Positions 16,617 to 38,853 of a stretch of 64,000 nt of DNA are shown here, piece after piece. The position numbers and the translations under genes were made by a program. Below the pieces are notes generated by a model, which worked only from the letters and a program-made list of their open reading frames with translations, ran no database searches and was not told the origin of the DNA. The stretch covers positions 1-64,000 of the forward strand of contig JAJPHI010000011.1 of assembly GCA_021325355.1 (NCBI GenBank). The letters run 5' to 3'. This stretch comes from Pseudomonadota bacterium (GTDB taxonomy: Bacteria; Desulfobacterota; Binatia; Binatales; Binataceae). Position 1 is the first letter of the stretch. Each line of letters starts with the position of its first letter.

Positions 16617-18545
<1,929 letters not shown>

Positions 18546-18596: not shown

Positions 18597-20000
18597 TCAT
18601 CCGTGGTCGGGCATAAACGCCCGTACATGGGCGACCCTGGCGGTCGCCGCGCTCACCAGAGCGAAGCGGCTGCGTGCCACGCCCGGCACCCAAACGATCT
18701 TATCATCCATGGCCACCACCGGCCATGTGATTCGCTGCATTCGCGGAACCTTGCGATCGACAAAGAGATCGTGCAGCTTGCGCGATCCCTTCAAGCCGAG
18801 AAGCTCGAGGCGATCGCCCGGACCGGCGCTGCGCACGATAAGCGGCGGGCGGAGGCTCGCGAGATCGAACAATGCTTCCATCGGACCGACCTGCAAGGCA
18901 TGCGGCCAGAACGAAGCCGAAAGCTGGCGCGCCTCGAAGGTGCAGTGGGCCGCCAGGACCCGGGTTGGACCATCGAGATTGAGCGCGACGGCAAAGCCGG
19001 AGGTCCTGCAGCTTCGGCTTTGAGGCTCGATCAGCGCGTAATCGTAGTCGCGGCGTAATTGCCGCCCGCCCGGTAAGGCGATAAGCGCGCTCGGCTGCCG
19101 GCCCGTACAGATACGCATCGCCGCCGCCACATGATCGCGCGTGACCGCACGCAGATCGGGCAGCTCGATGCGGATGAATTCGCGCAGCACCGCACCCCCG
19201 AGCGCGGCGGGGAGTTGCGCGAACCCGCGCAGATCGAGCCTGCGCGCATGCAGCCGGCGTTCGAGCTCGACGCGCGCGGCCTGCCGCAGATAGTCGTCCA
19301 CGGCACGCATCTCGGCGGCCAGCTCGACCAGCCGCCGCGTCAGTCCCGGCGCATAATCGCGTTCGAGCAGCGGCAGCAGGTCGCGACGGAGGCGATTACG
19401 CAGATGGCGCGGCGACCGATTGCTCGCATCCTCGATAAAGGGGGCGGCGATCGCGCGCAGATAGCCGGTAATCGCCGGCCGGCTTACCGACAGCAGTGGG
19501 CGCCACAGCTTTCCCGGCCCGCGCTCGGCCATCGCGGCGAGGCCGTGCGCTCCGCTGCCGCGCAACAGGCGCATCAGCACCGTCTCCGCCTGATCATCCG
19601 CGTGATGAGCCAGGGCGACTAAGTCGGCCTGCGCGTCGTCGGCAGCGCGCTGCAGGAAGTCGTGACGAGCAAGACGCGCGCGTTCCTCGAAATTCGGGCC
19701 GTGGGCGTCAAGGTTGGCGGCGCGGCTGACGACAAGGTCGAGTCCGAGGTTGGCGGCGAGGGTGCGCACGAACTCCTCTTCGCGATCGGCCTCGGCGCGC
19801 GCGCGATGGTTGAAGTGAGCCAGAACCAAGCGAAATCGGAGATGCCGCCGGAGTTCCGTCAGCGCGTAAGTCAGCGCCACGGAATCCGGGCCGCCGGAGA
19901 GCGCCATCAGCACCGTATCGCGGCGATCGAGTCCGACGCGCCGGGCGGCGCCGGCAACCGCTTCGCGCACCGCGGCGGTGGCCCGACCGTGCCCTGGCAT
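18597..20000 (-). CDS. tilS: tRNA(Ile)-lysidine synthase
   Basis: 467 residues. The PP-loop motif ALSGGPDSVALTYAL (about residues 33-47) marks the N-type ATP pyrophosphatase domain; LAHFNHRARAEADREEEFV and LVALAHHADDQAETVLMRLLRGSG are typical TilS segments. The C-terminal part (RSAGPGDRLELLGLKGSRKLHDLFVDRKVPR, summarised as about 385-415) is the TilS C-domain that grips tRNA. It converts C34 of tRNA-Ile(CAU) to lysidine, an essential reaction. The ATG immediately follows the stop of the preceding CbpM-like gene (TAGATG). Confidence 0.93.
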   Translation of the reverse strand: MPGHGRATAAVREAVAGAARRVGLDRRDTVLMALSGGPDSVALTYALTELRRHLRFRLVLAHFNHRARAEADREEEFVRTLAANLGLDLVVSRAANLDAHGPNFEERARLARHDFLQRAADDAQADLVALAHHADDQAETVLMRLLRGSGAHGLAAMAERGPGKLWRPLLSVSRPAITGYLRAIAAPFIEDASNRSPRHLRNRLRRDLLPLLERDYAPGLTRRLVELAAEMRAVDDYLRQAARVELERRLHARRLDLRGFAQLPAALGGAVLREFIRIELPDLRAVTRDHVAAAMRICTGRQPSALIALPGGRQLRRDYDYALIEPQSRSCRTSGFAVALNLDGPTRVLAAHCTFEARQLSASFWPHALQVGPMEALFDLASLRPPLIVRSAGPGDRLELLGLKGSRKLHDLFVDRKVPRMQRITWPVVAMDDKIVWVPGVARSRFALVSAATARVAHVRAFMPDHG

Positions 20001-20294
20001 CTACCTGCCGTCGAATTGATCGAGCAGATGGAGAATGACGTCGATACCGGGCGTATTGACCTCGAGTTCGTCAGCCAGGGTGCGGATGAGGCGCACGCGA
20101 CGCAACGCCGCCGCATCGTAGAGCGGCTCAGCGGCGTCACCGGATGCGTCATAGTCCACTGGCTCGATCCACTGTTCGCGCTCCCACAGGACGAGCTCGT
20201 GTTCGCTCACGCCGCTCAGCAGACGAAGGGCGGAGCGCCCGATAAGCATCACGTCCCGTGCCGCGGAGGTTTTGCGTCTTACGCGCCGCTTCAT
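20001..20294 (-). CDS. MerR-like chaperone modulator (CbpM-like)
   Basis: 97 residues. A basic N-terminus (KRRVRRKTSA) is followed by a MerR-type helix-turn-helix region: LRLLSGVSEHELVLWEREQWIEP, then LYDAAALRRVRLIRTLADELEVNTPGIDVILHLLDQ (described as about 55-90). The pattern NTPGIDVILHLL is typical of CbpM/MerR-like modulators paired with DnaJ or CbpA. It sits three bases after dnaJ and directly before tilS, so it probably tunes the adjacent co-chaperone or the expression of the heat-shock operon. It is too short to be a normal effector-binding MerR regulator. Confidence 0.75.
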   Translation of the reverse strand: MKRRVRRKTSAARDVMLIGRSALRLLSGVSEHELVLWEREQWIEPVDYDASGDAAEPLYDAAALRRVRLIRTLADELEVNTPGIDVILHLLDQFDGR

Positions 20295-20297
20295 CGC

Positions 20298-21407
20298 CTA
20301 TTCCCGCATCATCTCGGCGCGTGGGTCCGCCACGCCGCGCGCCTTGCGTCGGTCGGCCAGTTGCTGCATCAACTGGCGTTCGTCGTTGGTGAGGTCGGTT
20401 GGTGCCAGCACCCTGAGTTCGTAGAGCAAATCGCCGGCCGGTTCCTTGCCGCGCGCCGGCAGACCTTTGCCGCGAAGCCGCAGGACCCGTCCGCTCTGGC
20501 TGCCGGCCGGGATCTTGAGGGCGATTCTGCCGGTGGGCGTGGGCGCGGTGATCTCCGCTCCCAGCGCCGCTTCGTAATCCCATATGGGCAGCGAGCAACG
20601 CACGTCGCGACCGTCGAGGGTAAAGCCACCGCCGGGCTGCACGCGGATGGTCAGCATCAGATCCCCCGCACCGTCGGCGCCGGCAGCCTTGCCGCCCTGA
20701 CCGCGCAAACGCATCCGCGAGCCGTTGGCCATGCCGGGAGGGATGGTGACTTCGAGCGTGCGCTGAGTTCGGATCGTGCCACGGCCGGCGCATTGATCGC
20801 AGGGTTCGGCGGAATGAATGATCCGCGTATTGCCGCGCCGTTCCTGCCGCGCCCGGATACCGGTGCCGTTGCAGGTCGGGCACTCATCGTCGGCCGGGAT
20901 GGTTAGACGACGTTTGCCGCCGTTGATCGCTTCATGCAGAGAGATCTCGGCGACCGCTTCAACATCCGGAGCCTGCGCGGCGCGCCGTCCGCGGCGGGCG
21001 CCGCTTACCTCATCGAAACCCAGATCGTCGAAATGGCGCGGGCCGCCGCTGAAGCCGCCGGCAAAACCGCCGCCGAAGAAACGCGCGAAAAAGTCGCTGA
21101 AGTCACCGGCGTCGCCGGCGTAACCGCCGGCCCCGCCGCCACCACTCTGGGCATATCGGCGGAAGATGTCCTCCTGCGGCGCCCGATCCCAGTTGGCGCC
21201 GAGTTCGTCGTACTTCTTGCGTTTTTCAGGGTCGCCAAGCACCTGATACGCCTCGTTGATCTCCTTGAACCTCTTCTCGGCGTCCTTGTTGCCTGGATTA
21301 ACGTCGGGGTGAAACTTGCGGGCGAGCTTGCGATAGGCGCTCTTGATTTCCGCTTCCGAAGCCGACGGCTCGACCCCGAGCGTTTTGTAATATTCGCGAA
21401 ATTCCAT
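20298..21407 (-). CDS. dnaJ: DnaJ-type co-chaperone with a half zinc-finger
   Basis: 369 residues. The J domain (residues 4-70) has the HPD motif ([10 protein letters not shown]) and [16 protein letters not shown] Gly/Phe-rich linker follows ([16 protein letters not shown]). Only two CxxCxGxG zinc motifs are present, CPTCNGTG and CDQCAGRG, instead of the usual four of DnaJ or none of CbpA. C-terminal substrate-binding domains follow ([40 protein letters not shown]). It stimulates Hsp70 ATPase in the cytoplasm. The neighbouring CbpM-like gene suggests a CbpA-like role, so the gene symbol is approximate. An upstream gap of 120 bases to ccmD is likely to contain its own promoter. Confidence 0.9.
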
Positions 21408-21527
21408 CCGATTGTTTTATCCGTTGAACGGCTGGCGCGGCCGCCGCCCAACCTCCGGTCGCCTTACCGTCTCCTGATAAGAGAACATGCGCATCACCGG
21501 CGCTCGCTGCAACATCGCCGTGCCCAT

Positions 21528-21710
21528 CTAGGACGAAGCGGCGTCGCGCGGCCGACGGGCGACGGTTTCGTCGAGGCGGGCAAGCCGCGCTTCGGCGGCG
21601 CGAATCCGGTTGCGCAGCCGGGCCTGGCGGCTCTGGAGAAAAATGACATAAAGCGCGATGAGCACGAAGATAATGCTGTAGGCGGCTAACAGGTAGGGAA
21701 AGTGTTCCAA
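21528..21710 (-). CDS. ccmD: haem exporter protein CcmD
   Basis: 60 residues: one N-terminal membrane helix (LLAAYSIIFVLIALYVIFL) followed by a basic, coiled-coil-like tail (RQARLRNRIRAAEARLARLDE). Size, topology and position just after ccmC (one base between stop and start) identify CcmD, the small subunit that releases holo-CcmE from the CcmABC haem exporter. Sequence conservation in this family is weak, so context carries the call. Confidence 0.8.
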   Translation of the reverse strand: MEHFPYLLAAYSIIFVLIALYVIFLQSRQARLRNRIRAAEARLARLDETVARRPRDAASS

Positions 21711-21711
21711 G

Positions 21712-22416
21712 CTAATCCTCCAGCGCGGCCTCGGCGAGCGCGATGTTGCGCATCAGCGTCTGCAGCCGGTCAGCATCGCGCAGCATCGCCATCCTGAGCG
21801 TCAGGAACCACACCAGCAGCGCGGTAAAGGCCGCCAGTGATACCAGCAGAGTTATCACCATGCGCGGGTCCTCGAGACCGTGAGTACCTTCGCGAGTGAC
21901 GATCACTGCCGGATGGATGGTGCGCCAGAGACGGACCGAGACGATAATCACGGGAACGTCAGCGGCGGCGACGATACCGAAGACCGCGGCGAAACGCGCG
22001 ATTTGCGGCGTGGGTTCGCTCAGCGCCCGCAGCAACAAATAGCCGCCGTAGAGCATCCACAGAATCAAGGTCGTGGTCAGGCGCGAATCCCACGTCCACC
22101 AGGTGCCCCAGATGGGTTTGGCCCAGATCGAGCCGGTGATCAGCACGAGCGTGCAAAACAACATCCCGGTTTCCGCTGCCGCATAGGCGAGGTCATCGAA
22201 GACCGTCTGCCCCAGCCACAGGAAGAAAATTCCACCGACGGCGACCAGAGCAAAGGCGGCGAAAGCGACCCAGGCGCAGGCGACGTGAAAATAGAAGATG
22301 CGCTGGACGAGACCCTGCTCGGCCTCATTCGGCACCCACGCGAAGACCATGAAGATAGCCGTCAGCATCAGGAGGACGGTAAGCAGACGGCCAAGCACCG
22401 ACAGTGAACGCGCCAT
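21712..22416 (-). CDS. ccmC: haem exporter protein CcmC
   Basis: 234 residues with six membrane helices. The periplasmic tryptophan-rich loop WGTWWTWDSRLTTTLILW (about residues 122-139) is the WWD signature, and conserved His residues flank it (FYFHVACAWVAF near 43 and RTIHPAV near 185). CcmC presents haem to CcmE in the periplasm. The order in this operon is ccmE-F-H-I-A-B-C-D reading along the minus strand. Confidence 0.93.
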   Translation of the reverse strand: MARSLSVLGRLLTVLLMLTAIFMVFAWVPNEAEQGLVQRIFYFHVACAWVAFAAFALVAVGGIFFLWLGQTVFDDLAYAAAETGMLFCTLVLITGSIWAKPIWGTWWTWDSRLTTTLILWMLYGGYLLLRALSEPTPQIARFAAVFGIVAAADVPVIIVSVRLWRTIHPAVIVTREGTHGLEDPRMVITLLVSLAAFTALLVWFLTLRMAMLRDADRLQTLMRNIALAEAALED

Positions 22417-22425
22417 CAGAGAGTC

Positions 22426-23100
22426 TCAGCCTTCGGTAACCACGCTTTCGAACAGCATATAGCCGGCACTCGTAAAGAGTACGTCAAAAGCGACGAGGAT
22501 TTTGAACCAGATGAGGCGATCGGCGAGCGGCGCGCCGGCCAACGCCAAAGCGCTCGCCTTGACCCCCGCGATAAGCGCGGGAACGAACAGCGGCACGGCG
22601 AGAAGCGGCAGGAGCAGGGCGCCGGCGCGGAGCCGACCGGCGATGCCGGCGAGCAGGGTGGTCAGGGCGGCGAAGCCGATGATCCCGAGCGCCAGCGGCA
22701 GCGCCATCGCGGCCAGTCGCCGATCGAAATCAAGATTGAAGAAGAGCACCAGGATAATTACCGCGACGGTCTGCCCCACCGCGATAAAGACCAGATCGGC
22801 GGTCATCTTGGCAAAGAACAGCAGCGCGCGATCCAGCGGACTGACCAGCAGCGCGCGCAGGCATCCGTTCTCGCGTTCGGCGGCGAGCGCCTGCGTGGCT
22901 CCGGCGGTGCCGGCAAAAATCATCGCCACCCATAGAGCGCCGGCGGCGGTCGCGGCGTCCTGTGCGCCGCCGACTGGATTAAACGCAAAGACGATCGCCA
23001 CCAGGATCAAGATGGAGAGACCAATCAACGTCAGCACGGTTTCGCCCGCGCGCAGTTCGAGCCGCAGATCCTTGCGCAGCAGGGCCCCGAATGCGCCCAT
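22426..23100 (-). CDS. ccmB: haem exporter permease CcmB
   Basis: 224 residues, six predicted membrane helices, beginning with the short amphipathic LLRKDLRLELRAGETV typical of CcmB. The loop GTAGATQALAAERENGCLRALLVSPLDR (about residues 60-87) carries the conserved family stretch. CcmB is the permease partner of CcmA in the CcmABCD complex that powers release of haem-loaded CcmE. It starts two bases after ccmA stops. Confidence 0.92.
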   Translation of the reverse strand: MGAFGALLRKDLRLELRAGETVLTLIGLSILILVAIVFAFNPVGGAQDAATAAGALWVAMIFAGTAGATQALAAERENGCLRALLVSPLDRALLFFAKMTADLVFIAVGQTVAVIILVLFFNLDFDRRLAAMALPLALGIIGFAALTTLLAGIAGRLRAGALLLPLLAVPLFVPALIAGVKASALALAGAPLADRLIWFKILVAFDVLFTSAGYMLFESVVTEG

Positions 23101-23102
23101 CG

Positions 23103-23822
23103 CTAGGCGGCCCCGAAGCTGACCCGGGCGCCGGCGGGGTCGACCACGAGGGCGCGAGCATGTGGTCGGGTGTCGGGAGCGATCAGTCTGCCCCGATGCA
23201 ATTCACGAAAGTCCGGGGCGAGTCCCGCCGGCGCGGTGGCCTGATGCGCCGTCAGCACGACGGCCGCGCCGCGAGCGAGCGCCCGGTTCAGCAGCGCGAC
23301 GGCCAGCTCGACGCCTTCGGCGTCAAGCGCCGTGAAGGGTTCGTCGATCAGGAGGATCTGCGGATCGGGCAGCATCAGGCGCGCCCACGCCAGCCGCTGT
23401 TCCATCCCGCGCGAGAGGCTGCGCACGAGTTCATTGGCGGCGGCGGCGAGACCGACCCGCGCGAGCCAGTCTGCGATGAGGGGGCGGGGGCGCGAGATGT
23501 CGTAAAGCCGCGCGAAGAACTCGAGGTTTTCCCGGGCGGTCAGGTTCGCATAGAGGAAGCTCTGATGGGTCAGCAGGCCAAGCTGACGACGCTTTGCGGG
23601 TTCCAGGCGATAGGCCGCCTCGCCGAACAACAGCGCCACGCCCGCCGTCGGTCTGAGCAGACCTGCCAACAGGCCGAGGAGGGTCGATTTCCCGGCGCCG
23701 TTGCGTCCGTGAATCAGCAGCGCGCGGCCCGCTCCGACCGACAGGTCAATCTGACGAAGTATCGGCTCGGTGCCGAAACTTTTGCCAAGACCGTCGGTTG
23801 CGATAAGCGGCGCGGAACTCAC
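23103..23822 (-). CDS. ccmA: haem exporter ATP-binding protein CcmA
   Basis: 239 residues. ABC ATPase motifs are complete: Walker A HGRNGAGKSTLLGLLAGL near residue 40, signature LSRGMEQRLAWARL near 140, Walker B ILLIDEPFTALD near 160 and a switch histidine in VLTAHQA. Its short size and place before ccmB identify CcmA. The start overlaps the stop of the ccmI-like gene by four bases. Confidence 0.93.
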   Translation of the reverse strand: MSSAPLIATDGLGKSFGTEPILRQIDLSVGAGRALLIHGRNGAGKSTLLGLLAGLLRPTAGVALLFGEAAYRLEPAKRRQLGLLTHQSFLYANLTARENLEFFARLYDISRPRPLIADWLARVGLAAAANELVRSLSRGMEQRLAWARLMLPDPQILLIDEPFTALDAEGVELAVALLNRALARGAAVVLTAHQATAPAGLAPDFRELHRGRLIAPDTRPHARALVVDPAGARVSFGAA

Positions 23823-24127
23823 GACTGCCCTGAAGGCGCGGCGGCGTTTGGCTGTGCGAAACGGGCCAGCGCGGCCATCGCGGTCAATGCGCGGGTCTCG
23901 AAGCGATGGCGCAGCATCTGATATTCGCTGTCGCTGATTTTGCCCATCGCGTGGTCGAAATCGATTTCGCGGATAGCGGCCAGCGCCAGGCGATGCTCAT
24001 GTTCGAGTTGGGCGATCTCGGCCTCGCGACTGCGGCTTTGCGGGCGGATGGCAAAACCCTCGGCCAGTGGCGCGGCCACGAACAGCGCCACGGCAATCAT
24101 CAGCATCAGCGCCGCGATCCAAACCAT
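23819..24127 (-). CDS. short CcmI-like cytochrome c biogenesis protein
   Basis: 102 residues. One N-terminal membrane helix (WIAALMLMIAVALFVAAPLAEGF) is followed by a soluble region with EIAQLEHEHRLALAAIREIDFDHAMGKISDSEYQMLRHRFE (about residues 35-75), resembling the N-terminal CcmI/CycH region found just after the first helix. The TPR domain of full CcmI is absent. Placement between ccmH and ccmA with 3- and 4-base junctions makes a role in apocytochrome handling likely (inference). Confidence 0.7.
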   Translation of the reverse strand: MVWIAALMLMIAVALFVAAPLAEGFAIRPQSRSREAEIAQLEHEHRLALAAIREIDFDHAMGKISDSEYQMLRHRFETRALTAMAALARFAQPNAAAPSGQS

Positions 24128-24130
24128 GGT

Positions 24131-24625
24131 CTAAGCGTCTTTGCGCACTTCGTCGTCGAGCCGACGCCTCAGTGCGGCATCAAAATTCTGCTCGTCCAGC
24201 CGAGCGGGCAGGGATGGTTGACCGCTGGTCCATCGTGAGAACACCATCACCAGCAAAGCTCCGCCGATGGCAATCACGCCGAAGGGAGTTATCCAGGCGA
24301 GCAGATTGAAGCCGCTCGTGGTCGGGGCCGAAAGGATTTTTTCGCCGTATTTGACGCGGAAAGCCTCGATAATCTGTTCGCGGCTCCGTCCTTGCGCGAT
24401 CATTTTCTCGATCTGGTCGCGCACCGGCACCGAGAACTCGCACTGCGGATGGTTGCAGTTGGCGACCGTCAACCCGCATCCGCATTGGCAGGTCAGACCT
24501 TCCGCCACCGAATCCACGCTGGGCTTGACCGCGGCGCGGGCGTAGTAGGCGCCGCCCAGCGCGAGCGCGAACAGGAGGAGCGCGCCAGGCGCGCGGAACC
24601 GCCGAGATGACGATGCGGGAGGCAT
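24131..24625 (-). CDS. ccmH: cytochrome c maturation thiol protein CcmH
   Basis: 164 residues: an N-terminal signal/anchor helix (APGALLLFALALGG), a periplasmic domain and a C-terminal helix (LLAWITPFGVIAIGGALLVMVF). The thiol motif is LTCQCGCGLTVANCNHPQC rather than the enterobacterial LRCxxCQN. Extra Cys residues of this kind are seen in environmental and deltaproteobacterial homologues. The helical segment IEKMIAQGRSREQIIEAFRVKYGEKIL is typical. CcmH reduces the apocytochrome CxxCH cysteines before ligation. The ATG at 24625 lies four bases after the ccmF stop, with GGAGGCGAG upstream; longer frames would run into ccmF. Confidence 0.88.
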   Translation of the reverse strand: MPPASSSRRFRAPGALLLFALALGGAYYARAAVKPSVDSVAEGLTCQCGCGLTVANCNHPQCEFSVPVRDQIEKMIAQGRSREQIIEAFRVKYGEKILSAPTTSGFNLLAWITPFGVIAIGGALLVMVFSRWTSGQPSLPARLDEQNFDAALRRRLDDEVRKDA

Positions 24626-24629
24626 CGAT

Positions 24630-26645
24630 TCACTCGCCTCCGGGCGCCATCTGCGCTTCGAGAGCAGCCTCATCGCCGGCGCGCACCACGGCGGCGATAG
24701 CTGCGCGTTCACGTACGTTGGGCCACATCACGATTACGGTACCCAGCGCCATGATAAGACCGCCGGCCCAGAGCCAAAAGACCAGCGGCGTCAGAAAGAC
24801 CTGAAAGGTCGCCTGGCCGGTGGCTTCATCCACCCCGGCAAAGACGACATAGAGATCGTGAAGCGGGGTTGAGCGCAGCGCGACCACGGTCGCCGGCTGC
24901 TGCTGGCGGGCATAGAACAGTTTGGCCGGCAGCATCACCGCGAGCGGCCGCCCGTCGCGCATCACCTCGATTCGGGCCTGCAGACTTTCCACGTGGGGGT
25001 CCATCGAGCTGCGCGTGCCGAGGTACACCAGCTCGTACGGGCCGACGTCGATACTGTCGCCCTGGCGGACGGAGCGTTTGACCTCGAGGCGGAAGAAGGA
25101 AGAGGCAACGATCCCGACGAAGGCGAGGACCACGCCCAGATGGATGACGTAACCGCCATAGCGGCGATTGTTCTTGGCCACGAGATTGACCATCGCGCGG
25201 GCCGAGCTTTCGCCGACCAGATGGCGGCGCGCGGTGACGCCATGGCGGAACTCGGCGAGGATCGTGCCGAGGACAAAGGCGGCGAGCGAGAACGCCGTCA
25301 GCACATACCACTGATGTAATCCCGCCAGCGCGACGCAGAGACCGGTCCCGAGACCGATTAGCAACGGCGCGGCGAAGGTTCTAAGCAGATTGCGCGCGGT
25401 TGAGCGGCGCCACGCGATAAGCGGTCCCACACCCATCAGGAAGATCAGGAGCAGCGCCAGCGGGCCGTTGACTTTATCGAAGAACGGCGGGCCGACGGTG
25501 ATCTTGACCCCGCGCACGGCCTCGGAAATCACCGGAAAGATCGTGCCCCAGAAGACCGCGAACGCGATTCCGACCAGCACCAGATTGTTAAAGAGGAAGG
25601 CCGCCTCGCGCGACAGATAGGACTCGAACTCGGCCGGCGTGCGCAGCATCTTGAGCCGGCCGACGAGCAGTGCCGTATAGGCGCTCGCCACGATCGCGAG
25701 GAAGGTCAGGAAGTAAGGTCCGAGGCCTGACTGGGTGAACGAATGCACCGAGGAGATAACGCCGCTGCGCGTGAGGAAGGTGCCGAAGAGCGTCAGTTCG
25801 AAGGCGAGACCGATCAGCGCGAGGTTCCACACCTTGAGCATGTCCTTGCGCTCCTGGATCATGACCGAATGGAGGTAGGCGGTCATCACCAGCCAGGGCA
25901 TGAAGGCGGCGTTTTCGACCGGATCCCAGGCCCAATAACCGCCCCATCCGAGGACCTCGTAGGCCCAGCGCGCGCCGAACAGATTGCCGAGCGTTAGAAA
26001 GAACCACGAAAAGATTGCCCAGCGCCGTGTCGTGCGAATCCAGCTATCGTCGAGTTTGCCGGTAATCAGGGCGGCGGCGCCGAAGGCGAACGGGACACTC
26101 GCGCTGACGTAACCCGTATACAGCGACGGCGGATGGATGGCCATCCAGTAGTTCTGCAGCAACGGATTGAGGTCCTGCCCGTCGCCCGGCACGCGCGCGA
26201 CGAGATCAAACGGCCGCGTGACGAAGTTCAGCATCCCGAGAAAGAAGATCGCGAGCACGGCCAGGACGGCGAGCGCGTATGGCGTGATTTCCGGGTTGCG
26301 GCGGCGGTTCTGCCAGGCCACGATCGAGCTGAAGACCGACAGCAGCCAGGTCCATAGCAGCAGCGAGCCCTGCTGGCCTCCCCAGAGCGCGGTGAACTTG
26401 TAAATCGGCGGCAGCGTGAGGCTGCTGTAGGAAGCGACGTAATGGAGGGTGAAGTCGCTGTGCAGCAGGCTTGACCAGAGGACCACGATCGCGACGGTGA
26501 TCATCGCGGACATGGCCCATAGGGCGTGCCGTCCGCTGACTACCAGCGCCGAAAGCCGGCGGCGCGCGCCGATCACATTCGCGAGGACGGAATAGAATGC
26601 GAGCAACAGCGCGAAGGCGAGTGCAAATGGACCAATGAGTGGCAT
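24630..26645 (-). CDS. ccmF: cytochrome c haem lyase CcmF
   Basis: 671 residues with about 14 membrane helices. The tryptophan-rich haem motif WGGYWAWDPVENAAFMPWL (about residues 236-254) is diagnostic, preceded by HPPSLYTGYVSASVPFAFG. The protein joins haem carried by CcmE to apocytochromes in the periplasm. The start codon overlaps the ccmE stop (TGATG), which fixes the ATG at 26645 rather than the 12-residue longer frame. Confidence 0.95.
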   Translation of the reverse strand: MPLIGPFALAFALLLAFYSVLANVIGARRRLSALVVSGRHALWAMSAMITVAIVVLWSSLLHSDFTLHYVASYSSLTLPPIYKFTALWGGQQGSLLLWTWLLSVFSSIVAWQNRRRNPEITPYALAVLAVLAIFFLGMLNFVTRPFDLVARVPGDGQDLNPLLQNYWMAIHPPSLYTGYVSASVPFAFGAAALITGKLDDSWIRTTRRWAIFSWFFLTLGNLFGARWAYEVLGWGGYWAWDPVENAAFMPWLVMTAYLHSVMIQERKDMLKVWNLALIGLAFELTLFGTFLTRSGVISSVHSFTQSGLGPYFLTFLAIVASAYTALLVGRLKMLRTPAEFESYLSREAAFLFNNLVLVGIAFAVFWGTIFPVISEAVRGVKITVGPPFFDKVNGPLALLLIFLMGVGPLIAWRRSTARNLLRTFAAPLLIGLGTGLCVALAGLHQWYVLTAFSLAAFVLGTILAEFRHGVTARRHLVGESSARAMVNLVAKNNRRYGGYVIHLGVVLAFVGIVASSFFRLEVKRSVRQGDSIDVGPYELVYLGTRSSMDPHVESLQARIEVMRDGRPLAVMLPAKLFYARQQQPATVVALRSTPLHDLYVVFAGVDEATGQATFQVFLTPLVFWLWAGGLIMALGTVIVMWPNVRERAAIAAVVRAGDEAALEAQMAPGGE

Positions 26646-27094
26646 CAGCTCGTTTTCTCGGGTGAGTATTTGGAAGGGCAACTGGTAAGGACCTGGCGCG
26701 CTTCGATCGTGCCATCGGCGCCGAGACGGCCCTCGACGATTACGTCGCGTCCGACCGCGAACATATCGGGCTTGGGTTGGCCGCGCGCGATTACGCGAAA
26801 CGACGCCGGCGCGACATCGTTGATCGCGACCTTTTGCACACCCGTCTGGGTTGCTTGCGGCGGCTGCACGATTGAAAACGCGAGCGTCAGGCTGGCGGCA
26901 TCCCAGGTGATATTGCCGGGAGCGACGCGTCCGGCAACTCGCACCATCTGGCCGGCGAGCTCGGTCCGGCGCTGCTGAGCCTCATTGACCGTCAGGTAAT
27001 ATTCCGAGGTGGTGCGGACGGCGGCGACGATCAGGTAAGCGATCGCTGCGGTCATCAGCGCAACGCCGACTACGAATTTATATTTTTTGTTCAT
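26645..27094 (-). CDS. ccmE: periplasmic haem chaperone CcmE, cysteine type
   Basis: 149 residues. An N-terminal anchor (YKFVVGVALMTAAIAYLIVAAV) is followed by the OB-fold domain with YYLTVNEAQQRRTELAGQMVRVAGRV. The haem-attachment segment reads LTSCPSKYSP at residues 136-145. Cys139 and Tyr143 form the CxxxY motif in place of the usual HxxxY. Cys-type CcmE is known from deltaproteobacteria and archaea. It receives haem from CcmABCD and passes it to CcmF. It begins the ccm operon, with the ATG at 27094 preceded by GGGG; the longer frame upstream has no signal-like features. Confidence 0.92.
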   Translation of the reverse strand: MNKKYKFVVGVALMTAAIAYLIVAAVRTTSEYYLTVNEAQQRRTELAGQMVRVAGRVAPGNITWDAASLTLAFSIVQPPQATQTGVQKVAINDVAPASFRVIARGQPKPDMFAVGRDVIVEGRLGADGTIEARQVLTSCPSKYSPEKTS

Positions 27095-27397
27095 CCCCGA
27101 CTTCCGCAGGACAGTCTTCGCGTTGCCTCCCGTGCCTATTCTCGACTGCGCCGCCCCGATGGGCAAGCCGTGGCGCTCGACCAGCCTTCAGCCGAGGCGA
27201 GATTCGAGAGAGGATTCGATTGCGCCTTGTTTCCGCGCATGTTCTATGATGTTCCGCGCATTTGCCAAATAGGACAAGCAAAAACGCAATTAAAGGAGTT
27301 GAATAAGCTTACAAGTTTAGCTAATAGTGTTTGCCGCAAGGTAGCACTACGCTCTCAGGTGGCGAATACACGGTCGCACCAAAGGGGGCGGTTCGAC
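27095..27397. promoter_or_regulatory. divergent regulatory region between ccmE and the beta-helix gene
   Basis: 303 bases, noticeably more AT-rich than the surroundings between about 27250 and 27340. It contains two copies of TTCCGCGCAT around 27230-27262, an AAAGGAG not followed by a usable start (27292-27298), and a hairpin at 27358-27380 (GGT-GCGA stem pairing with TCGC-ACC, one bulged G). This hairpin sits just before the AAGGGGG ribosome site of the downstream gene. Promoters for both flanking genes should be here; no strong consensus pair was found. Confidence 0.4.
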
Positions 27398-28342
27398 GTG
27401 GCTTATCACCGAGCGGGGAAACAGCCGGCGCTGTTCGCGCTTGCCGCGCTTATGCTCGTGGCCGCGCCGGGGTCTGCGCAGCCGCCGCAGTCGGTAAGCT
27501 CCTGCACCACGCTCAACAAGGCCGGCCTCTACGTTCTCGATGCCGGGTCTGCGCCGGTCTCGCCGTCAGTGCCGGGCGATTGCTTTGTCATCACCGCCTC
27601 GAAAGTGGTCTTCGATCTGAACAGCGCGATGCTGGTGGGACTGGGGACGGGGGCGGGGATACATGTGATGTCGTCGGCGACCGACGTTCTGATCGAAGGG
27701 CATAATTCGGTCATCAGCGGCTTCAACGAGGGAATCGAGATCGACGGTTCGAAGAATATTGCCGAGAACTTCACGGTCACGCGCAACTTCGACGCCGGTG
27801 TGCTGCTGAACCGGGTCAAGCAGACCAAGCTCAACAACTTCATGGCGAGCTACAACGGCACCGACGGCGTGCGCATTTCCAAGGGATCCTACAACAGCAT
27901 CGCGGGGGCGGCGAATCCGGGCGTCGATGGTTCGGTTACGCTCGAACAGAACGGACGCTACGGGCTATGGCTCTTCGCCACCAGCTACAACAGTATCGGC
28001 GGCTTCACCGCGGAAAATAATGCTGTCGCGGGGGTGTACCTGGGATGCTCGACGGCTTTCCCCAGCCCGTGCAGCAAAAATTCCACGAGCAATTACAATT
28101 CAATTTTCGACGGCGACGTGATCGCGGTAAACGGCGGTTCGGAGCCCTACGGGGTCGCGATTGACCTTGGTGACGGCAACAACCGCGTGACCAATATCTC
28201 GAGTCTCGGCGAGGACCTCGCGGCGGTCACCGACGATTTAATCGACCAGAACAGCGACTGCGGCACCAACGACTGGTTCGCCAACAGTATCAGTGGACAG
28301 ACGTCGCCCTCCTGGGATCACACCTCCGGCTGCATGGATTGA
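27398..28342 (+). CDS. exported right-handed beta-helix protein
   Basis: 314 residues from a GTG preceded by AAGGGGG about 10 bases upstream. The first 28 residues form a signal peptide (AYHRAGKQPALFALAALMLVAAPGSAQ). The body shows the repetitive Asn/Gly/Val pattern of parallel beta-helix (NosD/PbH1) proteins: DVLIEGHNSVISGFNEGIEID, NIAENFTVTRNFDAGVLL, NNFMASYNGTDGVRIS, then GRYGLWLFATSYNSIGGFTAENN, each about 22-25 residues. Cys pairs near both ends may be disulfides. Such folds bind or cleave polysaccharides, or serve as surface proteins; no catalytic lyase residues can be assigned. The open frame continues upstream to 27170 but lacks secretion features there. Confidence 0.75.
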   Translation: MAYHRAGKQPALFALAALMLVAAPGSAQPPQSVSSCTTLNKAGLYVLDAGSAPVSPSVPGDCFVITASKVVFDLNSAMLVGLGTGAGIHVMSSATDVLIEGHNSVISGFNEGIEIDGSKNIAENFTVTRNFDAGVLLNRVKQTKLNNFMASYNGTDGVRISKGSYNSIAGAANPGVDGSVTLEQNGRYGLWLFATSYNSIGGFTAENNAVAGVYLGCSTAFPSPCSKNSTSNYNSIFDGDVIAVNGGSEPYGVAIDLGDGNNRVTNISSLGEDLAAVTDDLIDQNSDCGTNDWFANSISGQTSPSWDHTSGCMD

Positions 28343-28444
28343 GGACGCCGCCGCAGTTTGCGGATTGGGGCAGGCGGCGCTAATAGAAAATCGTTGATCG
28401 TGACCGTGTTGCCTTGTGCGGCACGCATCCAGAGGAGGTCTGCC

Positions 28445-29557
28445 ATGGCCGAGGAACTGCTGATTTCCGCCGATTCCCATTTCGTCGAACCGCCTTCGAT
28501 GTGGGTCGAGCGGGTTGACAAGAAGTTTCGCGATCGCGCGCCGCGCACGGTCAAGGGCCTTAACGGGCGCGAGGGTGAATGGTTCGTCTGCGAAAATATC
28601 ACGCCGATGTCGGTGGCCGGATTCTTCGGCGCCGGGGTGCCCTCGCAGGAGCTGCCGGCCCATAACCGGAAGACCTTTGACGAGGCCCCGAAGAGCGTCT
28701 GGGATGCCAAATATCGCATCGCGGATCAGGACCGGGACGGCGTGCTGGCCGAGGTTATCTACACCTCGATGGGGATGCCGCTGTTTGGGCTTGACGACGC
28801 CGAGCTGCGCGCGGCCCTGTTCCGCGCCTTCAACGACTGGGCCTGCGATTATTGCAGCTATGATCTGAAGCGCCTCATTCCGCTGGGGCTCATCACGCTC
28901 GAAGACGTTCCGGGTGCGGTCGAGGAGCTGCAGCGGATCGCGAAAAAAGGGATGCGCGGCGCCATGATCTGGGCCGAGCCGCCGAGCGACAAGCCCTACA
29001 GCGATCCGGCGTACGAGCCGTTCTGGGCGGCGGCGCAGGATCTCAACATGCCGCTCTCCCTGCATATCCTGACGGCCCGCGGCGGTACCGGGGCGAACCA
29101 GGCGGCGGGGCGGAACTTCCTGCTCTCGCTCGCCAATCTCCATCATCAGATCGAACGGTCGATTTCGGTGCTGGTGTTCGGCGGGGTGCTCGAGAAGTTT
29201 CCCAAGCTGCGGATCGTCTCGGCCGAGAACGACGTCGGCTGGATGGCCTACTTCATGTATCGTCTCGATACGATTCAGAACCGGCTTGGCGCCCTGGGCG
29301 GTCTCAAGCTGCCGTTGCGGGCGAGCGAATATATCAAGCGCCAGGTGTTTGCGACGTTCATCTCCGATCCGGTGTTTTCGGATTCGCTCCATCGGTACGG
29401 CCCGGACAACATCATGTGGTCGTCCGATTATCCGCATACGGCGGCGACGTTTCCGCGTTCGCGCGAGATCGTGGCGAAGCGCTTCGGCGCGCTGCCGGAC
29501 GAGCAGCGGCGCAAGATTATCCGCGATACCGCGGCGCGGGTTTACGGGATCAACTGA
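28445..29557 (+). CDS. amidohydrolase-2 family metal-dependent hydrolase
   Basis: 370 residues, TIM barrel. The N-terminal ISADSHFVEPPSMW supplies the metal-binding DxH region; SLHILTARG near residue 210 and IMWSSDYPHTAATFPRS near 325 carry the later His and the catalytic Asp. The family (ACMSD-like) performs decarboxylation or hydrolysis of aromatic or carboxylate substrates. The ATG at 28445 is fixed by AGAGGAGG upstream. A paralogous enzyme lies at 49.4 kb. A GC-rich hairpin follows the stop. Confidence 0.85.
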   Translation: MAEELLISADSHFVEPPSMWVERVDKKFRDRAPRTVKGLNGREGEWFVCENITPMSVAGFFGAGVPSQELPAHNRKTFDEAPKSVWDAKYRIADQDRDGVLAEVIYTSMGMPLFGLDDAELRAALFRAFNDWACDYCSYDLKRLIPLGLITLEDVPGAVEELQRIAKKGMRGAMIWAEPPSDKPYSDPAYEPFWAAAQDLNMPLSLHILTARGGTGANQAAGRNFLLSLANLHHQIERSISVLVFGGVLEKFPKLRIVSAENDVGWMAYFMYRLDTIQNRLGALGGLKLPLRASEYIKRQVFATFISDPVFSDSLHRYGPDNIMWSSDYPHTAATFPRSREIVAKRFGALPDEQRRKIIRDTAARVYGIN

Positions 29558-34192: not shown

Positions 34193-35746
34193 ATGACTGC
34201 ACAATCAGCGGCGACCGCGCCCGATGAACTGTGGCGACTGCTGCAGCAATGCGACGCGCTGCGTACGTTCAGCGAGCGTGAACGCGAGGCGCTCCTGACC
34301 GCGATTCCGCACGAACCCGGTATGGGTGTTCGCCGGTTCGCGGCGCGTGAGCTCATCTGCCGCAAGGGCGAATACGAGCTGAGCTTATGCATCGTGCTCG
34401 AGGGCTGTGCGGCCGTGGTTAACGACGTTGACCCGGCTCTGCCGCCGACGGCGATCTTCATGCCGGGCAGTATCTTCGGTGAACTCGGTGCGATGCGGGG
34501 ACGGCCGCGTTCGTCGGATGTGGCAGCGCTCGCGCCGACCCTGGTCTTTTTCGTTCCGCGTCACGCCCTCAAGTACCTCGAAGTCAACGAATACGCGCGC
34601 AACCTCCTCGCCGAGCGTTATCGCGAGCATGCGGTGCGCGCGATGATGCATCAGGTGGATCTCTTCGCCGCGTTGCCGCGCGAATTCATCGACCGCCTGA
34701 TCCCCCACTGTCGTATCGAGCGCCACGATTTGCGCGGCGTGCCGGTCGTCCAGCAGGGCGCCGAAGGCACGGGTTTTTATATCGTTCTCGACGGTTTCGT
34801 GCAGGTCGTGCGCCAGCGCGACGACCAGCAGAATCGCGTGCTCGCCTACCTCCGCGAGGGTGAATGCTTCGGCGAGATGTCGCTGCTTGGTTCGGGCTTT
34901 GCCTGGGCCAGCGTGCTGACAGCGGGCAAATGCGAACTGATCAAAATCGACAAGGACGGGTTTCGCGAACTCTGTCGCGACTTTCCGGCGGTCGAGCAGC
35001 GCCTGCGGGAAGTGATCGCGCGCCGTCAGGAGCAGGAGAATCGCGTTACCGCGGAACTGTCCGAGCTGCTCGAAAAAAGCGGCCAGCTCGGCATCATTCA
35101 AGCCGAGGCGCTGCTGGTGATGGATCTCGATCGCTGCACCGGTTGCGACAATTGCGTCAGCGCCTGCGAATCGCTGCATGGCCGCAGCCGTCTCATCCGC
35201 AACGGCGTGCAGATCGGCCAGTACCTCGTGCCGGCCGCCTGTCGTCACTGCGACGATCCGAAATGTATGAACGCGTGTCCCACGGGTGCCGTGCGGCGGC
35301 GTGCCGAGGGGGAGATTTACTTCGATTACGAGGCCTGTATCGGATGCGGCAACTGCGCGATCGCATGTCCCTTCGATACGATCATGATGATCGACACGCC
35401 GGTGTTCGACGCGGCGCAGGCGCGCAAGAGCGCAATCATGGGGCGCGAGTTCTTTCGCCCGCCGGCGCCGGAGTCGCGCGAAGAGCCGGTGGGCCTGCTG
35501 GGACAGCTTCTCGGGCGCGGCCGCCGCAAACCGCTCACACGACCGCAGCCGGCTCCCGCAGAAGCAACGCACGTCCCATCGAGTTACCCGATCAAATGTG
35601 ACCTGTGCGACGGTCTGCCCTTCATGGGATGCGTGCATAGCTGTCCGACCGGCGCCGCGATGCGGATCGAAGCGGCCGAACTGTTCGCGAATCTTCATGT
35701 GGTGACGAGCCGTGCTCACGTCCGCAGGGTCGAGGAGGCCGGATAG
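34193..35746 (+). CDS. double cyclic-nucleotide-binding-domain ferredoxin (four-cluster type)
   Basis: 517 residues from the ATG at 34193; the frame extends to a TTG at 34172. Two cNMP-binding (Crp-like) domains cover about 20-145 (FMPGSIFGELGAMRGRPRSSDV) and 155-290 (GFYIVLDGFVQVV, YLREGECFGEMSLL). No helix-turn-helix follows. Instead there is a ferredoxin domain with four Cys groups: CTGCDNCVSAC, CRHCDDPKCMNACP, CIGCGNCAIACP and CDLCDGLPFMGCVHSCP, the DmsB/HycB-type pattern for four [4Fe-4S] clusters. It looks like a cytoplasmic electron carrier whose activity is set by a ligand on the cNMP domains. It is followed 12 bases later by a cytochrome b and then a multihaem flavoprotein, in one operon. 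Confidence 0.85.
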   Translation: MTAQSAATAPDELWRLLQQCDALRTFSEREREALLTAIPHEPGMGVRRFAARELICRKGEYELSLCIVLEGCAAVVNDVDPALPPTAIFMPGSIFGELGAMRGRPRSSDVAALAPTLVFFVPRHALKYLEVNEYARNLLAERYREHAVRAMMHQVDLFAALPREFIDRLIPHCRIERHDLRGVPVVQQGAEGTGFYIVLDGFVQVVRQRDDQQNRVLAYLREGECFGEMSLLGSGFAWASVLTAGKCELIKIDKDGFRELCRDFPAVEQRLREVIARRQEQENRVTAELSELLEKSGQLGIIQAEALLVMDLDRCTGCDNCVSACESLHGRSRLIRNGVQIGQYLVPAACRHCDDPKCMNACPTGAVRRRAEGEIYFDYEACIGCGNCAIACPFDTIMMIDTPVFDAAQARKSAIMGREFFRPPAPESREEPVGLLGQLLGRGRRKPLTRPQPAPAEATHVPSSYPIKCDLCDGLPFMGCVHSCPTGAAMRIEAAELFANLHVVTSRAHVRRVEEAG

Positions 35747-35758
35747 CGGCGCTCCCGG

Positions 35759-36664
35759 ATGGAGGCGCAAGGCGCACTCGGCGCGAGCATCGACGCGGTC
35801 CGCAGGACGCCTCAGGGCCGCCTGAGCGTCTGGCTCGCGGGATGCCTGGCGGCGCTGGTCGCGTTCTATCTTTCCGGTTTTCGGCATCCGCCCGGATGGG
35901 GTTCATTGCGCACCGGCTGCCTGACGCTGGCCGTCTTCGCGCTGGCGGCGCTGTATCGGGTGCGCAAACGCTGGACCTGGTGGGACCTGCGCACGATGTG
36001 GTTCGGAGCGCGGCTGCCGGCCCGGCTCGGCGGATGGTGGCGGCGCGCCGACCGCCTGGAGACCTGGCGCCACGTCCACATCGCCGCAGGCCTCGGCGTG
36101 ATGATTCCGCTCTGGTGGCACATCCAGGAAGGAGCGGGCGCATCGCGGCTCGAAATCGTTCTGCTCGCGATCGTCGGATTGCTCCTTGTGAGTGGTGTAA
36201 GCGGCGTTCTTATCCAGGATTTTCTGCCGCATGCGATGCGCATACGGCCCGGCTACGAGGTGCGCCTCGAAGATATCGAGGGCGCGCTGCATGACCTATA
36301 CGTTGAGGCGGAAGAGGCCATCCTGGGCCGTCCCGAAGCTTTCGTGCAGACCTACCTGCGCGATATCAGACCGCTGATGCTCGGGTCGCCGCGATCAGCA
36401 GCGCTCTTATGGGCGACGCTGACCGGATCTGATCCGACGACGGCGGTTACCGACCGTCTCGCCCACCGCCAGCCGGAAACGTCGGATCCCGCCGCGTGGG
36501 AGCGCCTGACGAAGCTGGTCGAGCGCAAACTTCGCCTGGATCACAACCGTGTCAACCTCAGGCTCAGTCGTGGATGGGTATCGGCTCATCTCGTGCTCGT
36601 CGTGCTGCTGGCGGTGCTGGTGAGTTTTCATATTGCCGGCGCACTCTATTTCGCCGGGCTATGA
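35759..36664 (+). CDS. dihaem cytochrome b-like membrane protein
   Basis: 301 residues with about five membrane helices. Two helices each hold a His pair at i/i+14 spacing: His107/His121 (VHIAAGLGVMIPLWWHIQ) and His277/His291 (AHLVLVVLLAVLVSFHIAG). Four such His would bind two b haems across the membrane, as in other dihaem cytochromes b. A soluble middle segment (about 170-260) is acidic and helical. The protein would pass electrons between the cytoplasmic ferredoxin encoded upstream and the multihaem protein encoded downstream. Its stop overlaps the next start (ATGA). No close family name is recognised. Confidence 0.75.
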   Translation: MEAQGALGASIDAVRRTPQGRLSVWLAGCLAALVAFYLSGFRHPPGWGSLRTGCLTLAVFALAALYRVRKRWTWWDLRTMWFGARLPARLGGWWRRADRLETWRHVHIAAGLGVMIPLWWHIQEGAGASRLEIVLLAIVGLLLVSGVSGVLIQDFLPHAMRIRPGYEVRLEDIEGALHDLYVEAEEAILGRPEAFVQTYLRDIRPLMLGSPRSAALLWATLTGSDPTTAVTDRLAHRQPETSDPAAWERLTKLVERKLRLDHNRVNLRLSRGWVSAHLVLVVLLAVLVSFHIAGALYFAGL

Positions 36665-38853
36665 TCGTTCGGTACGCGCGGCTCGGCGTCGGATGGTTGG
36701 TGCTGATCGGTCTGGGAGTTCTGCTCTATTCGCGTCGCAGCTACCAGCCCGGTCCGCTGCTTGCGGGGCACGTCAGCGTCGCGTCGCGCTGCGCCGCATG
36801 CCATCAGCCATGGCGCGGCCCGCAAAACACCAACTGCATCGCTTGTCACGGTAATTTTGCCGCGAGGAACCCGCACGGGAGTCTGCTCGTGCGGCACGAT
36901 GGTCGGCAAGGGAGCGACGTGCGACTGCTCGCGTTCGAGGGCAAGCTGAGCTGCCTCAGTTGTCACCACGAGCATCGCGGTTCCAATGCCGATTTCCGCG
37001 CGGCAGCCGCCGTCAACTGCGATGGCTGTCATGCCCACGCGTCGGTCAGCGGGGTCAGCGCTCATCGTGGCGCGATACTCATGCGGCCGGCGAGTGCGAA
37101 AGCGCTGTTCCCGCAGGTGCCGTTCAATCACTTCGAGCACAAACTCCTCATCGAGGCGCAGCCGGACGCGTTTCCCAAAGGCGCCGCATGCATCACGTGT
37201 CATCAAGTGACTGGCGCTGATCCCGGCGACGACGATCGCACCGTTATCCTGTGGTCAGGGTGCAAGCCCTGCCACGCCAATCCGCAGGATCCTCCGTTGG
37301 GATTGCCGCAGCGGCTTGGCGCCGCGCCGATGGCCTTGCCCTACGCGACGCTCGCGCGCCTGCGCCATATCAACGCGATCTTTAACCATTCCACCCGTCA
37401 TCTGGCGACACCCTGCGTGAATTGCCACGCCAAGGTTGCGGCGAGCGTGGATCCGGGCGACGCCGATGCGCGAGCCGTCACCCAATGTTTCACCTGCCAC
37501 GCCCATCAGACCGCGCCGACGCGGGCGGCGAACGCCGAAAAGCGGTCCGCGATGGCGCTGCGACCGCACCTGGTCGCCGCCGCTTTCGCCGAGGTCGGCG
37601 CGCAGTCCGGAACGGTCGTGGCCTGCGGCGATTGCCATTGGTTCCATCGCCATGGAGCGACGCCGACGCTCGACTTCGTGCGGCCGGCGCTGCGCCAAGC
37701 CCCGCACGGCGCCGACGGCGGATCGGCAGCACCGTGGGTGATCGGGATGGCAGCCCTGGTCCTGATAGTCGCTGGCGGTATCGCGTGGACGGTTTCGCTA
37801 CCGGCGCCTGACGATCGCTCCCATCACGCGGTCGCCGACACCGCGCCGCAACGGATGATCAAAACCCCGATTCTCGACGATACCTTTCAAACCAGCATCA
37901 AGGGCCTGTACATCGTCGGCGAGATGGCCGGGACGGCCTCGATCAATCTGGCGATGCGCTCGGGACGACAGATCATCGAGACGATCGCCGCGCAAATCAA
38001 GCAGCCGTCCGCGCTATCGGACGCCCACACGCACGATGTGCTGATTGTTGGGTGCGGCCCCGCTGGCTTGAGCGCTACGGCGACGGCCAAGGCGTTCGGA
38101 CTGCGCTACATAACGCTCGAACGCATGACGCCGGCAAGTACGCTCCGCACCTATCCGCGCACGAAGCTGGTCCAGGCGACGCCGATCGATATCAGCGAGT
38201 ACGGATCTTTTTATCTCGAGGGCGACGCGACCCGCGAAGACCTGGTGCGGGAATGGGAAAAGATAATTGTTCAGGGCGATTTGAAGATAAGCGACCGTCA
38301 GGAGGTCGTCGCGATCCTTCCGCAGGAGGGTCATTTTCTCGTCAGAACGGCCCGACAGGAGGAATTTCGTGCGCGCTTCGTGGTATTGGCCATGGGCGTG
38401 CGGGGCCATCCGCGCAAACTGGGCGTGGCCGGGGAAAACAGCTCGCGGGTGCGCTACCAATTGATCGAACCGGGCGAATTTCGCCACCAGCGCATCCTGG
38501 TGGTCGGCGGCGGCAATGCCGGCGCCGAAGTCAGCGTCGCCCTGGCCGAACCGAGCCTGGGCAATCGGGTAAGCTACTCGATTCGCGATGCCGTCCTGAC
38601 CAAGGTCAATTACGAGAACGCCGCCAGAGTGGTGGCGATGCAGCGTTCCGGTCATCTCGCGTTCTACCCGAATACGCAAGTTGCCGAAATTGCTGAGGGC
38701 ACCGTCGTGTTGAGCAGCGCCGAGACGACCTCAGCCGCTAAAGCACTGCGCGTCGAGCTTGAGAATGATGTAGTTTTTGCGATGGTCGGCGCGGAATTGC
38801 CGACGCGGTTTCTCGAGGCGATCGGGATCAGAATGAAGGTTTTGCGGCGCTAG
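36661..38853 (+). CDS. nine-haem cytochrome c fused to FAD/NAD(P) oxidoreductase
   Basis: 730 residues. An N-terminal helix (LGVGWLVLIGLGVLLYS) acts as anchor or signal. Nine CxxCH motifs lie at about 44, 59, 98, 120, 177, 201, 252, 276 and 322. A second helix (about 359-380, WVIGMAALVLIVAGGIAW) leads to a flavoprotein domain with the FAD motif IVGCGPAGLSA at about 463 and the NAD(P) motif VVGGGNAGAEVS at about 613. The block resembling the C-terminal FAD site of thioredoxin reductases (TSIKGLYIVGEMAG) precedes the first Rossmann motif. If the topology is as drawn, the haems are periplasmic and the flavin cytoplasmic. The ATG at 36661 overlaps the cytochrome b stop (ATGA). The protein should need the ccm system encoded 10 kb away. 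Substrate and direction are unknown. Confidence 0.85.
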   Translation: MIVRYARLGVGWLVLIGLGVLLYSRRSYQPGPLLAGHVSVASRCAACHQPWRGPQNTNCIACHGNFAARNPHGSLLVRHDGRQGSDVRLLAFEGKLSCLSCHHEHRGSNADFRAAAAVNCDGCHAHASVSGVSAHRGAILMRPASAKALFPQVPFNHFEHKLLIEAQPDAFPKGAACITCHQVTGADPGDDDRTVILWSGCKPCHANPQDPPLGLPQRLGAAPMALPYATLARLRHINAIFNHSTRHLATPCVNCHAKVAASVDPGDADARAVTQCFTCHAHQTAPTRAANAEKRSAMALRPHLVAAAFAEVGAQSGTVVACGDCHWFHRHGATPTLDFVRPALRQAPHGADGGSAAPWVIGMAALVLIVAGGIAWTVSLPAPDDRSHHAVADTAPQRMIKTPILDDTFQTSIKGLYIVGEMAGTASINLAMRSGRQIIETIAAQIKQPSALSDAHTHDVLIVGCGPAGLSATATAKAFGLRYITLERMTPASTLRTYPRTKLVQATPIDISEYGSFYLEGDATREDLVREWEKIIVQGDLKISDRQEVVAILPQEGHFLVRTARQEEFRARFVVLAMGVRGHPRKLGVAGENSSRVRYQLIEPGEFRHQRILVVGGGNAGAEVSVALAEPSLGNRVSYSIRDAVLTKVNYENAARVVAMQRSGHLAFYPNTQVAEIAEGTVVLSSAETTSAAKALRVELENDVVFAMVGAELPTRFLEAIGIRMKVLRR

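Follow-up and report, generated by a model that had tools for sequence, protein, structure and literature searches.

A conserved gene unit of cNMP-ferredoxin, membrane cytochrome and nonahaem flavoprotein that may link NAD(P)H to the periplasm in a Binataceae bacterium

Three plus-strand genes, here called P1, P2 and P3, lie between positions 34193 and 38853 of contig JAJPHI010000011.1 from a Binataceae genome; the 64,000-nucleotide stretch of this contig that we analysed is referred to below as the window. P1 (34193..35746) encodes a cytoplasmic protein of 517 amino acids in which two cyclic nucleoside monophosphate (cNMP)-binding domains are joined to a four-cluster [4Fe-4S] ferredoxin part, as judged from Pfam matches and cysteine conservation. 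P2 (35759..36664) encodes a predicted membrane cytochrome b of 301 amino acids, recognized by its invariant histidines and hydropathy, and P3 (36661..38853) a transmembrane fusion of a nonahaem cytochrome c and a flavoprotein (730 amino acids; Pfam, motif count and hydropathy). A preliminary description of this DNA had noted the tight coupling of the three genes, and indeed only 12 bases separate the P1 stop codon from the ATG of P2, while an ATGA is common to the P2 stop and the P3 start. An alternative in-frame TTG is present upstream of the P1 start, at 34172.

The three genes travel together in the window's family, f1. In a class sample of 148 genomes, P1 was detected (E <= 1e-30) in 25, of which 16 belong to f1 and nine lie outside it. 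P2 was detected (0.001) in 21/148, its 16 strong f1 matches coming from the same 16 genomes as P1. Class-wide co-occurrence of P1 and P2 gave a Fisher p of 8.8e-15, or 1.4e-16 without the two weakest P2 matches (G001 and G030), both uncorrected for relatedness. A search for P3 in 38 genomes returned a strong match in 10 of the 24 f1 genomes included. We compared sixteen f1 loci (the window and L047-L061, with genome G003 counted twice) and found the order P1-P2-P3 to be identical in the window and the 15 other loci, with homologues sharing about 40-67% identity; conservation of the order in 15 other loci argues that the arrangement is not due to chance. The locus of G063, known as L030 alone, has all three parts; contig ends truncate P1 in G019 and P3 in G006, G062 and G063. 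In the flanking DNA (greedy frame list, to contig ends), no other cluster of reading frames occurred in more than 3/7 genera; the only cluster to reach three genera runs antisense to P1/P2. P1-P2-P3 is a self-contained gene unit. Within f1 we saw neither routine separate encoding of the genes nor loss of their predicted ligands, in keeping with the expectation that the neighbourhood and its ligands would be retained together. The distance matrices of P1, P2 and P3 also agree (Mantel r 0.88-0.95, 0/2000 permutations each, for 14/16 loci with L052 and L055 omitted); shared genome ancestry alone could account for much of this agreement. Two tandem copies of P1 precede P2 in G022 (L055, 7801-11250).

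The reading of P1 as a four-cluster ferredoxin with two cNMP domains was borne out by two matches to PF00027 (1.9e-34), by several Fer4 models and by 16 cysteines between residues 315 and 484 (35135..35644, plus strand). These predicted ligands of four [4Fe-4S] clusters fall into four groups (C315/318/321/325, 350/353/358/362, 382/385/388/392 and 469/472/480/484), and all 16 are invariant in 17/17 rows of the family alignment. Among more distant P1 proteins, 14 of the 16 are kept in 11/11 rows, with C469 present in 10/11 and C472 in 9/11. Two weak segments flagged at a low hydropathy threshold were judged not to be membrane helices. The ferredoxin part resembles the four-cluster subunits of the DmsB, DsrO and HycB type (DsrO 66 bits, DmsB 60 bits, PDB 7qv7), although P1 scores far under the DsrO and DmsB cut-offs of 200 and 214. 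Unlike those subunits, it is fused to two cNMP domains and has no catalytic subunit encoded alongside.

The phosphate-binding cassette of cNMP-binding proteins is characterized by a Glu and an Arg. Domain 1 of P1 has both (Glu97 to Arg106, 34481..34510, plus strand), and both are found in all 16 family rows with residues at these positions. Domain 2 (residues 182-262, 34736..34978, plus strand; Pfam) retains Glu228, but has Ala237 in place of the Arg. Ala occupies this position in the window, G018, G004 and G064, and Arg in the 12 other family rows and in 11/11 distant rows. The Arg position of domain 1 is a His in two distant rows, G027 and G049; since the His is limited to these two, and both keep the Arg of domain 2, every row with residues has at least one Arg. 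The Glu is absent from both domains in the distant G035 and G028 versions. It is possible, judging from these sequences, that the cNMP domains form an allosteric gate under cyclic-nucleotide control, an idea weakened by the loss of the domain 2 Arg in the window's lineage and of both Glu residues in G035 and G028. The cNMP domains also contain cysteines 66, 173 and 247 in 16/16 family rows with residues and in none of the distant rows, as well as C56 and C261 in 15 of the 16; these extra cysteines are candidates for a redox switch or an additional metal site.

P2 gave no match to Pfam or NCBIfam models at E 0.1, and only 2/17 members of the P2 family weakly matched Ni_hydr_CYTB (best 1.1e-4). 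Its assignment as a putative bis-His dihaem membrane cytochrome is supported by H107, H121, H277 and H291, which are invariant in 16/16 family and 11/11 distant rows. The histidines form two pairs (107/121 and 277/291), spaced by 14 residues within each pair and located within or next to hydrophobic segments. Four segments exceed the hydropathy threshold (22-40, 50-68, 133-151 and 278-296); a fifth, around H107-H121, is over the threshold in the G027, Emticicia and Sphingobium relatives and under it in the window copy, and we infer a protein of five helices. To judge from the positively charged residues that follow segment 2, the loops preceding H107 and H277, the latter of ~120 residues, appear to be cytoplasmic. 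This would place one haem near each face of the membrane, with H107/H277 presumably pairing near the cytoplasm and H121/H291 near the periplasm. A structure model predicted from three rows (window, L002 and L003) had a mean pLDDT (predicted local distance difference test score) of 62 and gave no Foldseek match at E <= 0.001; with VIA-align, the same model of mean pLDDT 62 returned the b6f chains 7r0w_A (Z 9.1) and 4h0l_A (Z 8.8) among unrelated helical rows. A profile search of solved structures with P2 returned no cytochrome, and a P2 search of plasmid records gave no match at E 0.01.

In P3, nine CxxCH motifs were counted in a domain covering residues 44-326 (36790..37638, plus strand), and Pyr_redox_3 matched residues 461-723 (7.5e-30), so that the proposed fusion of a nine-CxxCH protein to an FAD/NAD(P) (flavin and nicotinamide adenine dinucleotide) oxidoreductase stands. 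The nine motif positions are kept in 16/16 family rows, the sixth as CX4CH in 12/16, and the region has Pfam matches of the cytochrome c3/c7 type; P3 was the sole match to PF14537 in the window's genome. Two hydrophobic segments, at residues 6-24 (36676..36732) and 360-378 (37738..37794), are predicted membrane helices, the first with its N terminus probably inside and the second probably running from outside to inside. From their positions, the flavin domain would face the cytoplasm and the nine haems the periplasm. Another, weaker segment within the haem domain (304-322), flagged at a low threshold, was judged not to be a membrane helix. The P3 model, from the same three rows as that of P2, had a mean pLDDT of 39.6.

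The predicted cytoplasmic FAD/NAD(P) domain of P3 (38032..38838, plus strand), defined by Pfam, NCBIfam and solved relatives, is of the YpdA/thioredoxin-reductase type and contains a single Cys. YpdA/Bdr and thioredoxin reductases share this domain (best NCBIfam model TIGR04018, 130.1 bits; solved relatives 7a7b and 7a76), whereas that of P3 appears permuted and lacks a CxxC. The FAD-contact segment normally stands C-terminal of the flavin domain. In P3, the corresponding segment (GLYIVGE..., residues 401-447, 37861..38001, plus strand) precedes it. A profile of this segment, seeded with the family, G027 and Emticicia, matched the C-terminal end of the unpermuted flavin domains of Sphingobium (independent E-value 1.3e-9) and G026 (4.8e-10), both absent from the seed. 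This is sequence evidence for a circular permutation of the P3 flavin domain. We rejected P3 as a YpdA bacillithiol disulfide reductase (130.1 bits vs. a TIGR04018 cut-off of 339.9), and as a thioredoxin reductase because the redox-active CxxC is missing, the one Cys of the window's flavin domain lying in GCGPAG. The position that we take to be the YpdA active-site cysteine is Ala in the window P3 and Cys in G027. The thioredoxin reductase of the window, TrxB, is encoded at 55958-56944 on the minus strand (TIGR01292, 401 bits, above cut-off). Elsewhere, the permuted flavin domain occurs joined to a membrane ferredoxin part: Pfam Fer4_5 identifies that part in a Candidatus Eisenbacteria metagenome-assembled genome (L068, 7989-10343), and a fusion of the same type was recognized by eye in Pseudoalteromonas (L004, 1784-4225).

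Outside f1, profile searches placed P1 next to P2 in G027, G035, Sphingobium, G072, G028, G099, G036 and G049. In G086 and G026 they are separated by about 9 kb and about 12 kb, respectively; the G111 contig is too short to decide. In G072, about 12 kb separates P2 from the multihaem protein. The flavin domain varies in position: it is part of P3 in the family and in G027, is fused to P1 in G026, Sphingobium and, with a break in the frame, G111, and is a separate gene in G028 and G035, while the contigs of G049 and G099 end too early to tell. The three-gene complex envisaged in the preliminary description can be retained as one conserved unit and widened, in that it forms one branch of a broader family that occurs elsewhere with a probable outer-membrane conduit.

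A complete gene set is found on the Sphingobium herbicidovorans plasmid pMSHV (L098, NZ_CP020539.1 800880-830175; set at 12852-29141), which encodes a flavin-cNMP-ferredoxin fusion, a P2-like protein, a cytochrome c3, an LVIVD multihaem protein, a barrel-like protein, an HbpS-like protein (PF03928) and a c554-like protein with four CxxCH. P1 also matches eleven more Sphingobium plasmids. In G003 (L054, 654-6998 and 11951-13564), the unit adjoins an LVIVD multihaem protein, a barrel-like protein, a four-CxxCH c554-like protein and a GlcG/HbpS-like protein. A barrel-like gene shares a contig with the unit, at distances of up to about 25 kb, in G003, Sphingobium, G035, G072, G086, G027, G026, G028 and G099, and lies on a different contig in G036 and G049. 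Outer-membrane barrels end in an aromatic residue, and the barrel assignment follows from the C-terminal Tyr or Phe of these proteins in 11 distinct complete loci; for the Sphingobium protein, neither Pfam (0.001) nor a search of solved structures (E 1) gave a match. Among the 148 class genomes, LVIVD is present in 18 and the barrel in 17, all 17 being shared. LVIVD proteins occur in 10/25 P1 genomes vs. 3.0 expected (p 6e-5, relatedness ignored), and in 8/9 distant P1 genomes vs. 18/148 overall. The LVIVD-barrel-HbpS neighbourhood of the distant relatives is probably an outer-membrane conduit. The Sphingobium LVIVD-repeat multihaem protein (L098:19977-23963, minus) weakly matches NCBIfam ExtM, from a Geobacter selenite/tellurite operon (64 bits, cut-off 800).

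P2-like proteins extend beyond the class, being detected in 21/395 phylum genomes at 1e-8 with a 17-row profile. Twelve stretches from 11 of these 21 genomes were compared; three more are known loci, and G032, G163, G189, G224, G240, G343 and G370 were left out. A multihaem c protein (7 to 51 CxxCH) lies beside the P2-like protein in 11/12 stretches, with none in G005 C1. A P3-type flavin domain was found in L137, L138, L141 and L142 (strong) and in L147 (weak). On Emticicia plasmid pEMTOL02, a P2-like gene, a ferredoxin-flavoprotein gene and two multihaem c genes are consecutive. This distribution suggests an ancestral core of P2 and multihaem c with the flavoprotein as a frequent partner and P1 as an addition found in this class and in Sphingobium.

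Taken as a whole, we consider it probable that P1, P2 and P3 assemble into a single oxidoreductase of the inner membrane, through which electrons are exchanged between NAD(P)H in the cytoplasm and the periplasm. The transmembrane electron transfer first proposed gains support from the conserved unit, the retained ligands and the predicted topology, with the flavin on the cytoplasmic and the c-haems on the periplasmic side. NAD(P)H would be oxidized by the cytoplasmic FAD domain of P3, from which electrons would pass singly to the four [4Fe-4S] clusters of P1. From there, they would move to the inner haem b of P2 and, having crossed the membrane to its outer counterpart, enter the nine c-haems of P3, which would deliver them to an acceptor in the periplasm or outer membrane. 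For the distant relatives, the barrel-cytochrome conduit encoded nearby is the probable acceptor. The P1 cNMP domains may act as a cyclic-nucleotide gate on this flow. Fusion of the flavin domain now to P1, now to P3 fits an electron path shared by both parts, and the Sphingobium fusion to P1 in particular argues for NAD(P)H/FAD feeding the clusters. These variable fusions lead us to prefer the outward order NAD(P)H, FAD, clusters, haems b, haems c. The fuller proposal, in which cyclic nucleotides gate an NAD(P)H:multihaem-cytochrome oxidoreductase at its ferredoxin subunit, the quinone pool is bypassed and, in relatives, the electrons go directly on to an outer-membrane conduit, we put forward only tentatively.

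Several observations weigh against this interpretation. P1 and P3 are both absent from G001, the window's nearest relative and a member of the same genus. P1 was not found in the 12 phylum stretches, save for a 6e-5 match to its ferredoxin part in L142. A flavin domain was not found in the fetched G086 and G072 stretches and was only weak in G036; its apparent absence from G086 and G072 suggests that P1, P2 and a multihaem protein may work without it. At the thresholds used, 14/16 family genomes, the window's included, lack LVIVD and 15/16 lack the barrel; within f1, LVIVD occurs in G003 and G022 only, and the barrel in G003 only. Porin-cytochrome conduits combine an outer-membrane barrel with a multihaem cytochrome; the LVIVD and barrel proteins of G003, used as queries, revealed no such pair in the window's genome, other conduit types not having been searched for. 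The structure models of P2 and P3 are poor and are given no weight here, leaving the topology to rest on hydropathy, and the direction of electron flow is not settled by the sequence.

Among characterized systems, the closest in design are CbcL and CbcBA of Geobacter, quinone-linked inner-membrane cytochromes that move electrons between inner membrane and periplasm (PMC12307469, PMC10553843). They likewise combine a membrane cytochrome b with multihaem c. P1-P2-P3 has the corresponding features, namely four invariant His and nine haem motifs. The comparison is by description only, and the available text describes CbcL/CbcBA as quinone-linked, with no mention of an NAD(P)H flavin domain or a cNMP-ferredoxin subunit. 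By analogy, P1-P2-P3 could work like CbcL/CbcBA with an added soluble-donor module. The neighbourhood of a barrel-like protein and an LVIVD multihaem protein in distant relatives recalls porin-cytochrome conduits and the Geobacter ext cluster (ExtHIJKLMNOPQS), described in the text available as containing a porin, multihaem c, cytochrome b and an Fe-S protein (PMC5877670). That cluster has Rieske and rhodanese-like proteins (PMC5877670), where P1-P2-P3 has a cNMP-ferredoxin and a flavoprotein instead. Searches of open-licence literature aimed at the composition of P1-P2-P3 gave no description of such a complex.

The main rival to a wire from NAD(P)H is a quinone-linked role. CbcBA consists of a cytochrome b and a seven-haem c partner, and four of the 11 phylum stretches with multihaem c beside a P2-like protein have seven-CxxCH partners, as might be expected if P2 oxidized or reduced quinone like CbcL/CbcBA, the P3 haems exchanged electrons with the periplasm and the flavin/ferredoxin parts coupled the quinone pool to NAD(P). 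The quinone linkage described for CbcL and CbcBA, as far as the available text goes, points the same way (PMC12307469, PMC10553843). Four clusters and a conserved flavin domain would however be superfluous for plain quinol oxidation, and we regard this scheme as doubtful, if a serious competitor. Every carrier is reversible in principle, and CbcBA is predicted in the text available to run in reverse in syntrophs (PMC10553843), so electrons from the periplasm or from outside the cell might instead enter the c-haems, with the membrane potential driving the reduction of the clusters and of NAD(P)+. Such reverse flow seems unlikely in the window's genome, which has a haem-copper oxidase (one COX1 match) and in which the G003 queries did not reveal the relatives' conduit, leaving no evident external donor.

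A very different role, in which the cNMP protein senses a cyclic nucleotide and the haem chain feeds into signalling instead of serving respiration, could draw on the two cNMP domains of P1, on three FHA domains in the P3 of G027, on an FHA-type match below cut-off in the Sphingobium cytochrome and on stretches in G028 and G035 that resemble FHA domains by eye. Yet the Pfam and NCBIfam matches listed for P1-P3 include no DNA-binding, kinase or cyclase domain (for NCBIfam, the best 25 of 82 families for P1 and the best 25 of 57 for P3), and four clusters with nine haems exceed the needs of a sensor, making this role highly improbable.

The surroundings of the unit include a cytochrome c maturation cluster on the minus strand (21712..27166), encoding CcmC-type, CcmB, an ABC ATPase (in place of CcmA), CcmH, CcmF and CcmE proteins. 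It lies 7 kb from P1-P2-P3, outside the unit, and we count it in favour of the preferred interpretation; c-type maturation genes are present in the window's genome (95% complete), six of them inside the window. A gene for a small transglycosylase-associated membrane protein (PF04226; 38931-39380, minus) converges on the unit.

The inner-membrane entries to multihaem chains in the descriptions available, ImcH, CbcL, CbcBA and CymA, are quinone-linked. If the proposed path is correct, electrons from NAD(P)H would pass via a regulated ferredoxin into periplasmic multihaem proteins, a different entry point to such chains, and second-messenger signalling would be linked directly to electron export. 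The Sphingobium plasmid version could make such a unit testable in a culturable soil bacterium.

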